Shown: piece after piece, positions 2,782-25,260 of the stretch
Layout: every line of letters begins with the position of its first letter
How positions within the stretch are numbered: the stretch's first letter is position 1
Assembly (NCBI GenBank): GCA_013299045.1
Contig: JAAFJX010000001.1
Span: forward strand, 124,001-188,000
Origin: Cytophagales bacterium
GTDB taxonomy: Bacteria > Bacteroidota > Bacteroidia > Cytophagales > Bernardetiaceae
Direction of reading: 5' to 3'
DNA length: 64,000 nucleotides
The notes under the pieces: generated by a model
Told to the model about the DNA's origin: nothing
Seen by the model: the letters and a program-made list of their open reading frames with translations, nothing else
Database searches by the model: none
Program-made: the position numbers and the translations under genes

Positions 2782-3011
2782 TAAGTGAAGGTTGCATACA
2801 AAGAGCAGCCCGCCTATGAGCAGTGTTCTGTAAGGAGCATTCTCTAAAACCACTTGGTTTGGAATAGCATTTATTCAGTGAATTTGCCGCTCGTTATAGG
2901 ACTTAAAGAGCAGTAGAATGCCACCCAGAATAGGCCGTTCATGTCAAGTCAATAATATTTCATGGTTTGTAACCATAAACAATGTTTAATTCAATTATTT
3001 AGTTAAAGAAT
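2782..3011 (+). promoter_or_regulatory. long untranslated gap before rpsD, possible S4 leader
   Basis: This 230-base gap is 2.5 to 5 times longer than the other gaps in the cluster (28, 91, 42, 65, 60 bases). It has no open frame that looks coding and no TAnnTTTG promoter that I can see. A hairpin with arms ATGGTT (2962-2967) and AACCAT (2971-2976) lies 36 bases before the rpsD start. S4 is the autoregulator of this operon in enteric bacteria, so a leader role is conceivable, but that is inference. Confidence 0.3.
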
Positions 3012-3653
3012 ATGGCACGTTTTATAGGTCCAAAGGCCAGAATTTCCAGAAAATTCAATGAGCACATTTTTGGACATTGCAAGCAGCTTACCCCAGCCCG
3101 CGTAGAAGCAGACGGCAAAGTAAAGCACAAGCAAAAAAATTATCAGCCCGGCCAGCATGGTAAGGGGCGTAAGAAAAAAGTATCGGCTTATGCAGAACAA
3201 CTCAAAGAAAAGCAAAAAGCTAAGTACATTTATGGCGTTTTAGAGCGTCAGTTCCACAACACATTTGAAAGAGCCGCTCGTAAAAAAGGGGTTACAGGCG
3301 AAAACCTGTTGCAATTCCTTGAAGCACGTTTAGACAACACGGTTTATCGTCTTGGCATTGCGCCTACTCGTCGTGCTGCGCGCCAGCTCGTCAATCACCG
3401 TCATATATGCGTAAATGGAGAATTGGTAAACATTCCATCTTACTCTTTAAAACCAGGCGATGTGATTGAAGTACGCGAAAAGTCAAAGTCTTTGGAGGTT
3501 ATTTCGGATTGTCTTGGCGCTAAAAACAGAAAATATTCTTGGTTAGAGTGGGATACCAACTTGCTTACTGGCAAGTTCTTGAACTATCCGTCCCGCGACG
3601 AAGTGCCTGAGAATATCAAAGAACAGTTCATCGTCGAATTATACTCTAAGTAA
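3012..3653 (+). CDS. rpsD: 30S ribosomal protein S4
   Basis: 213 residues, slightly longer than the usual 200-206. It has the N-terminal [15 protein letters not shown] segment, the middle [17 protein letters not shown] motif, and the S4 RNA-binding fold ([19 protein letters not shown], then the strand containing PGDVIEVR). S4 nucleates assembly of the 16S 5' domain and in several phyla represses its own operon. The N-terminal zinc cysteines of some S4 forms are absent. The start ATG is preceded by an A-rich stretch rather than a Shine-Dalgarno sequence. Confidence 0.97.
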
Positions 3654-3718
3654 TCGTTTGGTTTTGCAGAGTTGTTTGTAAAGTTTTTAAATAAAATCTT
3701 TCTCAGAAACAAAAAAAT

Positions 3719-4702
3719 ATGGCACTCTTAGCATTCCAAATGCCCGATAAAGTAATCATGGAAAAAGGCGACGATTTCCGTGGATTATTTGAGTTTAAAC
3801 CCTTAGAACGCGGCTATGGCGTTACGGTAGGCAATGCCCTGCGCCGTGTGTTATTGTCTTCGCTAGAAGGCCATGCCGTCATTGGCATACGCATTCCGGG
3901 TGTATTACACGAGTTTTCTACCATAGAAGGTGTAGTTGAAGATGTTACAGACATCATTCTGAATATCAAACAAATATGCTTCAAGAAACTCGCTGATGAA
4001 CCTGAAAATAAGATTACTGTATCCGTAAGCGGACAAACAGTTCTGAAAGCAGGGGACATCAACACCGTTGATTATAAAGTTCTGAATCCTGACCATATCA
4101 TTTGTCATTTGGATAAGTCTGCAAAGTTTGAACTCGAGCTTTACTTAGACAAGGGCAGAGGTTATGTGCCAGCTGAAGAAAATAAGCCCGCAGACCAAGT
4201 TTTGGGGTATATCCCAATTGATGCTATCTTTACGCCTATCAAAAACGTGCGCTATACTGTTGAAAATACACGTGTAGAGCAAAAAACGGACTATGAAAAG
4301 CTCTTGATTGAGATTCAAACAAATGGTGCAATACACCCAGAAGAAGCACTCAAAGGTGCTGCTGGTATTCTTATCAAGCACTTCTTGCTGATTTCCGACC
4401 AAAATATTTCTTTGGATATGGGTGAGTCGGAAGAAGAAGAGGCCGTAGATGAAGAAATGTTGCACATGCGCAAAATGCTCAAGACCTCGCTTGCAGAGTT
4501 GGATTTGTCTGTAAGGGCATATAACTGCTTGAAAGCTGCCAATATTCGCACATTAGGCGACTTGGTAAGTCTTGAGATTTCCGATATGCTCAAGTTCAGA
4601 AACTTTGGTAAAAAGTCTTTGACCGAACTAGAGCAACTTGTGGCTGACAAAAACTTAGTTTTTGGCATGGACGTAAGCAAATACAGACTGGACGAAGACT
4701 AA
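3719..4702 (+). CDS. rpoA: DNA-directed RNA polymerase subunit alpha
   Basis: 327 residues. The N-terminal dimerisation domain shows EPLERGYG-like [20 protein letters not shown] and the GYVPAEENK segment; an acidic linker (about residues 230-245) leads to the C-terminal domain with [15 protein letters not shown] and [12 protein letters not shown], the helix-hairpin-helix that binds UP-element DNA and regulators. The subunit nucleates assembly of core polymerase. Length and domain order are normal. It follows rpsD by 65 bases and precedes rplQ by 60. Confidence 0.98.
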
Positions 4703-23097: not shown

Positions 23098-23646
23098 ATG
23101 ACAATGAAGCATTATCTTGTTATTGGGGTCGGTTTTGTCGCTTTGTTGTGGCTGACGGCCTGCTCGTCTAATCCAAACGGAGACCGCGACCCAGTTATAT
23201 TGGGCACTTACAGCCCTGTATATTGCGAAACAAAAGAAGTAAAAAATATTCGTGTGATGGGGCCGCAAGTACTCAATAAAACAGGTAAAATTTATTATAA
23301 GGACAACTTTTTATTCATTGGTGAGCAAAGCAAAGGCGTACACATCATTGATAACAAAGACCCTAAGAATCCTAAAAAAATAGCTTTTTTGAGTATTCCT
23401 GGCGCACAAGATGTAGCCATAAAAGGCAACTATCTTTACGTAGATAACTATACGGATTTAGTAACATTGAATGTGGCAGACCCAAACAACGTTAAAGTAG
23501 TGAGCAGACAGGAAAATGTTTTCCCTGCTATGACGATTTACCCGCCTTATACCAATATTCGTTTCATTTGCCCAGACCCCAAAAAAGGGGTTATCGTTGG
23601 CTGGGAGAGCATTGAAGACACCGAAGAGGCGCGTTGTTTTAGATAG
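23098..23646 (+). CDS. LVIVD-repeat lipoprotein, N-terminal half of a split propeller
   Basis: 182 residues. The leader ends in the lipobox LTAC (cysteine at residue 22). The mature part has LVIVD-type beta-propeller repeats: KIYYKDNFLFIGEQSKGVHIID and DVAIKGNYLYVDNYTDLVTL. It ends at KKGVIVGWESIEDTEEARC, which in single-gene homologues I recall is the middle of a protein of about 420 residues. The second half is the next gene, 49 bases on. The start at 23098 (or 23104) is chosen because it begins the signal peptide; the frame opens at 23029. Surface lipoproteins of this type have no established role that I know. Confidence 0.8.
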   Translation: MTMKHYLVIGVGFVALLWLTACSSNPNGDRDPVILGTYSPVYCETKEVKNIRVMGPQVLNKTGKIYYKDNFLFIGEQSKGVHIIDNKDPKNPKKIAFLSIPGAQDVAIKGNYLYVDNYTDLVTLNVADPNNVKVVSRQENVFPAMTIYPPYTNIRFICPDPKKGVIVGWESIEDTEEARCFR

Positions 23647-23695
23647 GCTTCGCTGATATTTTCTGGACGCTAAAACTCATAAAAATCTAAAAAAT

Positions 23696-24490
23696 ATGAA
23701 ATCATTTGTTAAAAACATCAAAAATTTGGCCTTCCTTGCCCTTCTGACAATGACTATGGGCGCTTGTGAAATGAGTAGCACTGACATGAGAGAGGCCAGC
23801 CCAATGGATAATTCTGCAAATACAGGAAAGGCTGGTTCTATGGCGCGTTTTGCTATTTCGGGCAACCGTCTCTATGTAGTAGATGATGATGAGATTAGGC
23901 ATTTTTCTCTTCAAGACCCAGCTAAACCTACTTATGTTGATAAAATGAGCCTCCAAGATGGAGTAGAAACCATTTTCCCTTATGGCGACAAGCTCTTTCT
24001 GGGTACTACACGCGGTATGCTCATTTTTGATGTGAGTAACTTCGGTAATCCTACCTTCATCAGCAACTACGTGCACGTAACAGCCTGTGACCCAGTTGTG
24101 GTACAAGACAATTTTGCCTACGTAACCCTACGTAATGCGCAAAGCTGCCGCCAAAGCCCTAACCAACTGGATATAGTAAGCATAGACAATCTTTCTAACC
24201 CTCAGAATGTAAACAGAATGCCTATGCAGAACCCACATGGACTTGGGGTTGAAGGAGATTTCTTATTCATTTGTGAAGGAGATTTTGGACTAAAGGCTTT
24301 TCACATAAAAGAACGCAGCAGGCCAGTCCTCACCCAGGCAATAACAGGCTTCAACGCATACGACCTTATTCCCAATAACGGTATTTTGATGGTGGTGGGT
24401 AAAGACGGATTCCTGCAATACAGTTACGACATTAATAGTCCTGAAAATCCAGATTTACGTCTGCTCAGCAAAATCGTAAAAGGGTCTTAA
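23696..24490 (+). CDS. LVIVD-repeat lipoprotein, C-terminal half of a split propeller
   Basis: 264 residues, with its own signal peptide and lipobox MGAC (cysteine at residue 24). After a linker (residues 25-46), GSMARFAISGNRLYVVDDDE and following blades (VETIFPYGDKLFLGTTRGMLIFD, NPHGLGVEGDFLFICEGDFGLKAF, DLIPNNGILMVVGKDGFLQY) continue the LVIVD pattern of the preceding gene. In homologues as I remember them, these blades directly follow the N-terminal half in one polypeptide. Here the two halves are separate and each is exported. It lies 49 bases after the first half and 14 bases before the next gene, so one operon is likely. Confidence 0.8.
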   Translation: MKSFVKNIKNLAFLALLTMTMGACEMSSTDMREASPMDNSANTGKAGSMARFAISGNRLYVVDDDEIRHFSLQDPAKPTYVDKMSLQDGVETIFPYGDKLFLGTTRGMLIFDVSNFGNPTFISNYVHVTACDPVVVQDNFAYVTLRNAQSCRQSPNQLDIVSIDNLSNPQNVNRMPMQNPHGLGVEGDFLFICEGDFGLKAFHIKERSRPVLTQAITGFNAYDLIPNNGILMVVGKDGFLQYSYDINSPENPDLRLLSKIVKGS

Positions 24491-24504: not shown

Positions 24505-25260
24505 ATGAAAAAATCTTTTTATAACAAACTAGCGGGCTTTTTGTGCTGTATTGCGCTAGGGCTCGCCTCCCATGCGCTCGCACAAAGAACAGAGGCCGCC
24601 GACTCACTGCCTACCAGACGGGCACTTGCAGACAGCTTCTTGCTTGCCAAAACAACACTCTACGTATCGCCACTTTCTATTATGAACCCTATTTTCCCCG
24701 GATTCCAATTAGCGTGGGAGAGGCAAGTCAATAACTATACCTCTCTTGTTGGCGAGGCTGCTTTTCTCTATGGCTACACGGCTATTCCTTATTCTGACAG
24801 TCGCAGTAGCATAGAAAACACCAATAATTTTTTGCAACATGGTGTGCGTTTGCGTTTAGCGGCACGTGCCTTTCTGAAACCGCTCACTACACAACACCAA
24901 GAAAATCGTTATCTGGGTGCAGAACTACTCTTCAAACACGCTCGATTACGCGACTATTGGACGCAAGTAGGTATTGACAGTGACCCCAGCAGACCAGGCT
25001 TTGAGTACACCGAGGAACAGCTAACAAAAGACCGCGAAACATTGGTGGCATTCAGCATCAAAGGTGGCTTTATTTATAAATTACCGACCGTATCTCCCTT
25101 TCTGAGTCGTTTGGTATTTAATGGTGAGCTTGGAGGAGGCTTTGTTACCTATATCAACAGCTTAGAAAGTGGTATTTATGGCAACTTGAGTTCCGAACGT
25201 CCAATTATTCCCTTTGGTTCTGTTGATTTCCGTATTGGATACATCATTGCGAAGCAATAA
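24505..25260 (+). CDS. putative outer-membrane/periplasmic protein, co-transcribed with LVIVD pair
   Basis: 251 residues with a signal peptide ending near SHALAQ (residue 27). The rest alternates short hydrophobic strands with loops (LYVSPLSIMNPIFPGFQLAWE, SFIKGG-like FSIKGGFIYKLP, and a final FGSVDFRIGYII strand) as in small outer-membrane barrels of the DUF3575 kind. The start lies 14 bases after the second LVIVD gene, so it is probably translated from the same message and may work with it at the outer membrane. I do not recognise a defined family. Confidence 0.65.
   Translation: MKKSFYNKLAGFLCCIALGLASHALAQRTEAADSLPTRRALADSFLLAKTTLYVSPLSIMNPIFPGFQLAWERQVNNYTSLVGEAAFLYGYTAIPYSDSRSSIENTNNFLQHGVRLRLAARAFLKPLTTQHQENRYLGAELLFKHARLRDYWTQVGIDSDPSRPGFEYTEEQLTKDRETLVAFSIKGGFIYKLPTVSPFLSRLVFNGELGGGFVTYINSLESGIYGNLSSERPIIPFGSVDFRIGYIIAKQ

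Follow-up and report, generated by a model that had tools for sequence, protein, structure and literature searches.

Propeller lipoproteins that work with a β-barrel at the outer membrane are known from the BAM complexes. Two of them, E. coli BamB and, from the BAM complex of Bacteroidota, BamI, are propeller lipoproteins made of single chains, BamI having six blades and an extra N-terminal domain (PMC12578637). Propellers that are completed by a second chain are also known, as the eukaryotic proteins Sec13 and Seh1 are open propellers closed by a blade of a partner in COPII, the nuclear pore, and the SEA complex (PMC9646525). At the locus described here, as with Sec13 and Seh1, another chain would make the propeller whole. 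It differs in that Sec13 and Seh1 gain one seventh blade that belongs to a larger partner protein, and they are neither lipoproteins nor the result of cutting one propeller gene. The closest relatives are single-gene PF08309 lipoproteins of Bacteroidota (such as L101, L090, and L036), which have the same repeats, the same block order (GKIY...GIH..DN; GSMARF; CDPVVV; PHGLG; LLSKI), and, in 85 of 93 cases, a lipid signal at the N-terminus. Unlike the pair, they form one chain, mostly of ~420–460 amino acids, with a variable linker and a different barrel-like neighbour (60 of 92). A description of such a split pair was not found in the open-access literature, of which a part was surveyed. What sets this case apart is the cut within one bacterial propeller gene together with double lipidation; completion of a propeller in trans was already known.

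The pair lies in the window, the whole 64,000-nucleotide stretch of Cytophagales DNA that was analysed, where the following features were identified:

23098–23646, + strand: gene 1, a lipoprotein with LVIVD repeats (182 amino acids; predicted blades 1–2)
23152–23163, + strand: gene 1 lipobox, LTAC, with the lipid cysteine at 23161–23163 (sequence and pattern scan)
23284–23397, + strand: predicted blade 1 (GKIYYK...IAFLSI), aligned to L101 strands 56–93
23407–23508, + strand: predicted blade 2 (QDVAIKG...VKVVSR), aligned to L101 strands 100–132
23569–23637, + strand: C-terminal stretch of gene 1 bounded by two cysteines (C158, 23569–23571; C180, 23635–23637)
23647–23695, + strand: intergenic gap of 49 bases, across which the frames cannot be joined by a single indel
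23696–24490, + strand: gene 2, a lipoprotein with LVIVD repeats (264 amino acids; predicted blades 3–7)
23756–23767, + strand: gene 2 lipobox, MGAC, with the lipid cysteine at 23765–23767 (sequence and pattern scans)
23834–24487, + strand: propeller part of gene 2, from GSMARF to the C-terminus (alignment)
24505–25260, + strand: gene 3, a predicted 8-stranded outer-membrane β-barrel (251 amino acids; 14 bases past gene 2)

An earlier note on this DNA had described two complete LVIVD lipoprotein genes, in order and 49 bases apart. The coordinates confirm this, as do the PF08309 scores of 27.7 bits for gene 1 and 31.2 bits for gene 2 (Pfam cut-off 20.2). A search of NCBIfam returned nothing above any cut-off, and a sequence search of the PDB gave weak matches only (best E 0.011). 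The note's proposal that the halves correspond to the front and rear portions of single-gene homologues agrees with the alignment of gene 1 and gene 2 to these proteins; taken together, the halves are homologous to single-chain LVIVD members over the full length. Two details of the same note are corrected. Gene 1 was said to end at GVIVGWES, and its actual end lies 11 residues further (IEDTEEARCFR); GSMARF was said to follow directly in single-gene homologues, in which a linker intervenes that is variable, tens of residues long, and often rich in Ser, Asn, and Gly. The nearest relative of the window pair is only ~50% identical. Among 60 split loci of module B, to which the window's pair belongs, equivalents of both C158 and C180 are found in 36 and of neither in 23, and one locus (L151) has the last cysteine and a shifted first. 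The presence or absence of the two cysteines together, in rows that share ancestry, suggests a possible disulfide.

The predicted model of the single-gene homologue L101 is one well-packed chain (pLDDT 87.6, pTM 0.85) with seven four-strand runs at residues 56–93, 100–132, 218–251, 256–292, 300–342, 349–382, and 387–423. From residue 56 onward, the strands outside these runs are 160–174 and the short 211–213. The sole segment with pLDDT below 50 (184–205) falls within the linker where the splits occur. With VIA-align, the best matches to L101 were WD40-type propellers (Z 25–27 over ~260–290 residues, rmsd ~2–3 in most rows). Foldseek returned TM-scores of just 0.2–0.5 and mixed blade numbers, with the six- or eight-bladed propellers LRP6, BamB, and Tako8 among the best. 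These low scores and mixed blade numbers point to a common fold and not to a close relative, and the likeness of BamB to L101 lies in the fold match at ~10% identity. The model supports seven four-strand blades for L101, a number read from its strand list, and by alignment to it gene 1 should correspond to blades 1–2 and gene 2 to blades 3–7. In L101 the repeats keep their register and no strand is swapped between the parts on either side of the cut, so that seemingly no strand exchange forces the two chains to bind.

The distribution of the pair was then surveyed. Gene 2 was matched in 36 of 59 genomes, the window's own included, and 12 of these 36 had both a short (225–300 amino acids) and a long (at least 416 amino acids) open frame among the strong matches. 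The window genome is one of the 12, with frames of 277 and 445 amino acids. Its own single-gene LVIVD paralogue (L168; G000:C47:70000-78500, 3301–4638) is unlike most singles, having no recognisable lipobox, a leader that ends near AMAQQ, and neither barrel family next to it. A scan of named genomes contributed 80 loci, the best of the 579 stretches that were confirmed, mostly from Cytophagales and biased towards relatives near the query. Matches were also obtained in 122 of 392 genomes searched across the phylum, many of them weak matches to other repeat proteins, and in 30 of 61 Hymenobacter genomes. The 174 fetched loci, which include the best 80 of 579, were sorted into 101 single, 69 split, 2 gene-2-only, and 2 distant loci; the gene-2-only loci (L094 and L097) start near a contig end, and the distant ones (L170 and L171) are repeat proteins under the score limit. 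Removal of repeats left 158 distinct loci from the same set (best 80 of 579 included), 93 single and 65 split, numbers that count loci and not independent events. Splits of the window type occur in 16 families, three of them from other orders of the class and two placed to phylum only, and the cut falls at the same linker in splits across many Bacteroidota families. Judged by this spread over 16 families, other orders included, the split is old. Where the start of gene 2 was recognised (62 splits), the median spacing between the two genes is 3.5 bases; the gap is at most 60 bases in 52 and zero or overlapping in 22. A split private to the window genome is ruled out by the same arrangement in other families, and the split appears instead to be ancient, recurrent, and set within a conserved operon.

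Both genes encode a hydrophobic signal and a lipobox, and their products are predicted to be bacterial lipoproteins processed by signal peptidase II. A loose lipobox pattern, which in a few rows marks a cysteine inside the signal, identified a lipid cysteine in 62 first and 63 second halves, out of 65 each, upholding the claim that gene 2 has a lipoprotein signal of its own (MGAC). A strict pattern identified 47 of 65 for gene 1 and likewise 47 of 65 for gene 2. By this strict pattern, which catches 47 of the 65 true second-half signals, a mid-chain lipobox was found in none of the 93 singles. Among the two second halves missed by the loose pattern is that of L005, whose leader contains a lipobox-like cysteine but is read in a different frame. 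In this gene 2 (~1330–1555 of the reverse strand) the leader and the propeller part lie in different frames, for which a sequencing or assembly slip and a young lesion are candidates. Surface lipoproteins of Bacteroidota carry an export signal of acidic residues immediately after the lipid cysteine, such as K-(D/E)2 or SDDFE (PMC5080379). At least two acidic residues at positions +2 to +6 occur in 27 of 62 gene 1 products, 24 of 63 gene 2 products, and 50 of 85 singles, which is not convincing as a pointer to surface exposure.

Gene 3 follows in the same direction. Its AF2 model has eight strands (pLDDT 79.1, pTM 0.68), VIA matched it to the OprF barrel (4rlc; Z 15.1 over 133 residues, rmsd 2.4) and to OmpW (Z 14.6), and all four Foldseek matches at E ≤0.001 are outer-membrane proteins. 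Gene 3 is predicted to encode an 8-stranded outer-membrane barrel of the same type as the N-terminal domain of OprF, OmpW, OmpA, and DUF3575, with ~10% identity. In Pfam, the window's gene 3 had no match up to E 10, DUF3575 included, and the copies at L072 and L033 fall into no Pfam family either; the homologue at L032 matches DUF3575 (PF12099) with 31.5 bits (cut-off 21.1).

A profile of gene 3 was matched directly behind 43 of the 60 module-B splits, with 15 lacking it and 2 having no room (43 of 58), and directly behind none of 92 singles. When a fused Hymenobacter row was still included in the table, gene 3 was counted at 43 of 63 splits and at 1 of 93 singles (Fisher p 9e-22, a value that overstates independence because the loci share ancestry). 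Another barrel-like family stands directly behind 60 of the 92 singles and neither family behind the other 32; no open frame was matched by both neighbour profiles. The neighbour at L041 matches the PF13505 barrel with 23 bits, under the cut-off of 28.7, and three other members of its family had no relevant Pfam match. By clustering of flanks, this family was recovered in 38 of the 42 single loci longer than 9 kb (from the best 80 of 579), three of the 38 having it 0.8–2.5 kb downstream and four upstream on the other strand. Gene-3-like matches (E 1e-8) occur in 20 of the 59 genomes, several of them away from the pair. Gene 3 is absent beside six splits of the window's family (L007, L009, L012, L019, L165, and L172), several of whose genomes have a barrel-like match elsewhere, and beside nine splits from other orders (L142–L145, L147–L149, L153, and L154). 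As 15 of the 60 module-B splits are without gene 3, the barrel is not obligatory. Second copies of the gene-3 family were observed up- or downstream of some split operons (L032, 4385–5092; L039 and L042, 7479–8222; L043, 5050–5850; L066, 1882–2661).

The flanks of the loci from the best 80 of 579 contain further recurrent genes. A sigma-70-like gene, by eye of the ECF type, is present at 20 of 42 single and 6 of 27 split loci (for example, L036, 2648–4312), and a second recurrent gene at 18 of 42 single and 0 of 27 split loci. The one-gene module may be part of an envelope-response operon. Carboxylase-like and Clp-like genes, assigned by eye, recur near splits, mostly those of the related Spirosoma, Fibrisoma, and Larkinella.

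A tree of the joined parts was built from 77 rows with careful settings, and the split label changes three times on it, as it does across the 5th–95th bootstrap percentile; the changes concern the main split clade, the L006-type splits, and the fused Hymenobacter genes. The L006-type splits, Marinoscillum-like and others, sit among the singles beside L089 with 95–98% SH-aLRT, a placement from quick trees with four rows in one, one representative in the other, and L107 in none. All seven L006-type loci (five distinct) carry the singles' neighbour gene and not gene 3. A single clade of all splits and the fused Hymenobacter genes gave p 0.0485 in an AU test; in an earlier test with other rows, the fused Hymenobacter row being outside the clade, it was not rejected (p 0.076). 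Since the tree alone is borderline, the gene context decides, and the L006-type loci probably represent a second fission. That one fission gave rise to all splits, with the nesting of the L006 type among singles only apparent, draws on those borderline p values and runs against the SH-aLRT support, the three label changes, and the neighbour gene of the L006-type loci; we regard it as decidedly improbable.

In Hymenobacter, 26 loci were found (one being L022 again), 15 fused and 11 split, each adjoining a gene-3 match. Under a strict distance rule gene 3 stands behind all 11 splits and 14 of the 15 fused genes, and at the fifteenth (L185) it is part of a longer open frame. The tree contained seven of the fused and six of the split rows, and in it the seven fused genes form one clade (99/91) nested inside the splits. 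A topology holding them outside the splits was rejected by the AU test (lnL difference 161, p 2.6e-58). On this placement, the pair is re-fused in Hymenobacter beside the same barrel. Split and re-fused forms are both present in four of the genomes (G449, G463, G466, and G499). At one fused locus (L176, genome G450, 2895–3562), the barrel gene behind the propeller was matched in two frames that overlap, as would be expected of an interrupted gene. By the gene-fusion argument, re-fusion beside the same barrel speaks for the halves acting together, and it is the strongest evidence that they do so.

Several other explanations of the two genes were weighed. The earlier note had argued against a frameshift, and this holds: the frame of gene 1 is shut by a TAG at 23644 and that of gene 2 is open only from ~23657, so that no single-base correction gives one frame through the gap, and a frame step put into the gap left at least one stop in every case tried. 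Nothing at the window locus speaks for a frameshift, a sequencing error, or a decaying pseudogene, the discordant gene 2 of L005 being the one homologue of that kind. Against it stand the 65 distinct split loci in many families, the lipid signals on both halves, and the dN/dS values of relatives, which in 10 of 12 close pairs are 0.05–0.16 for gene 1 and 0.03–0.14 for gene 2 (dS was saturated in the remaining two). In these 10 pairs, purifying selection acts on each of the halves, and we reject this explanation, refuted by conservation, as having a negligible chance of being right. More serious is the idea that the two genes make independent proteins, gene 2 forming a closed five-bladed propeller and gene 1 a small two-blade protein that may associate with itself. 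Propellers of five blades are known, two-blade lectins self-associate, and the repeats of L101 run in register with no strand exchanged across the cut; gene 2 alone could in principle close as a five-bladed ring. The Hymenobacter re-fusion argues otherwise, as do the constant gene order and short gaps of 62 splits and the lack, in the set of 174 fetched loci, of any locus with upstream room that has gene 2 without gene 1. We consider independence possible and doubt it.

The direction of change in the window clade is a separate matter. The earlier note had proposed fission with gain of a signal peptide. For the L006-type lineage this is probably right, since it is nested in singles and has kept the singles' neighbour gene; for the window clade, rooting does not fix the direction, because the distant outgroups that would root the main splits against the singles moved with the rows used, and fission of one gene is favoured by an argument from the fold only. 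If the two-gene state were ancestral, the one-gene form would have arisen by fusion, in keeping with the separation of the main splits and singles in the unrooted tree and with a gene-2-only tree that distant outgroups root among long-branch splits. The instability of the outgroup position weakens this, the fetched distant relatives (L156, L157, L167, L170, and L171) are single chains, a two-blade fragment would be an odd ancestor for a propeller, and the L006-type lineage gives a hint of one gene undergoing fission. A two-gene ancestor is considered unlikely.

The reading that we prefer, at a probability of roughly 65%, is that genes 1 and 2 encode two chains of one seven-bladed LVIVD propeller lipoprotein, cut in a linker and working with the gene-3 barrel. 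It is supported by gene structure, conservation, linkage, purifying selection in relatives, and the Hymenobacter re-fusion. Genes 1, 2, and 3 form an operon-like row and would be co-expressed. Gene 1 would supply blades 1–2 and gene 2 blades 3–7, the cut falling in a disordered inter-blade linker. Each chain would be exported and lipidated separately, and both would meet at the outer membrane, where blades 1–2 and 3–7 would have to join at two blade-to-blade interfaces and close the ring. The lipid anchors would hold both chains at the same membrane and so replace the lost linker, and the presence of second anchors in both split lineages suggests that a second anchor is needed. Tandem duplication followed by complementary loss could have supplied the new signal at once. 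The most likely place for the propeller is on the gene-3 barrel or next to it, a contact to which the gene linkage points.

A fuller account, for and against which we see the odds as even, is of an outer-membrane propeller of 2 + 5 blades built from two lipidated chains with a dedicated barrel, its gene cut at least twice at the same linker with gain of an anchor and the cut undone once, the second anchor apparently being selected. If true, nature ran a split-and-fuse experiment on one propeller several times. The existence of single, split, and re-fused forms of one propeller makes it testable how far such a ring tolerates a cut between blades, whether membrane anchors can replace a covalent link, and whether selection for the two-chain form comes from a partner barrel. 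The same findings suggest that a set of otherwise anonymous LVIVD proteins and barrels probably belongs to one envelope complex.
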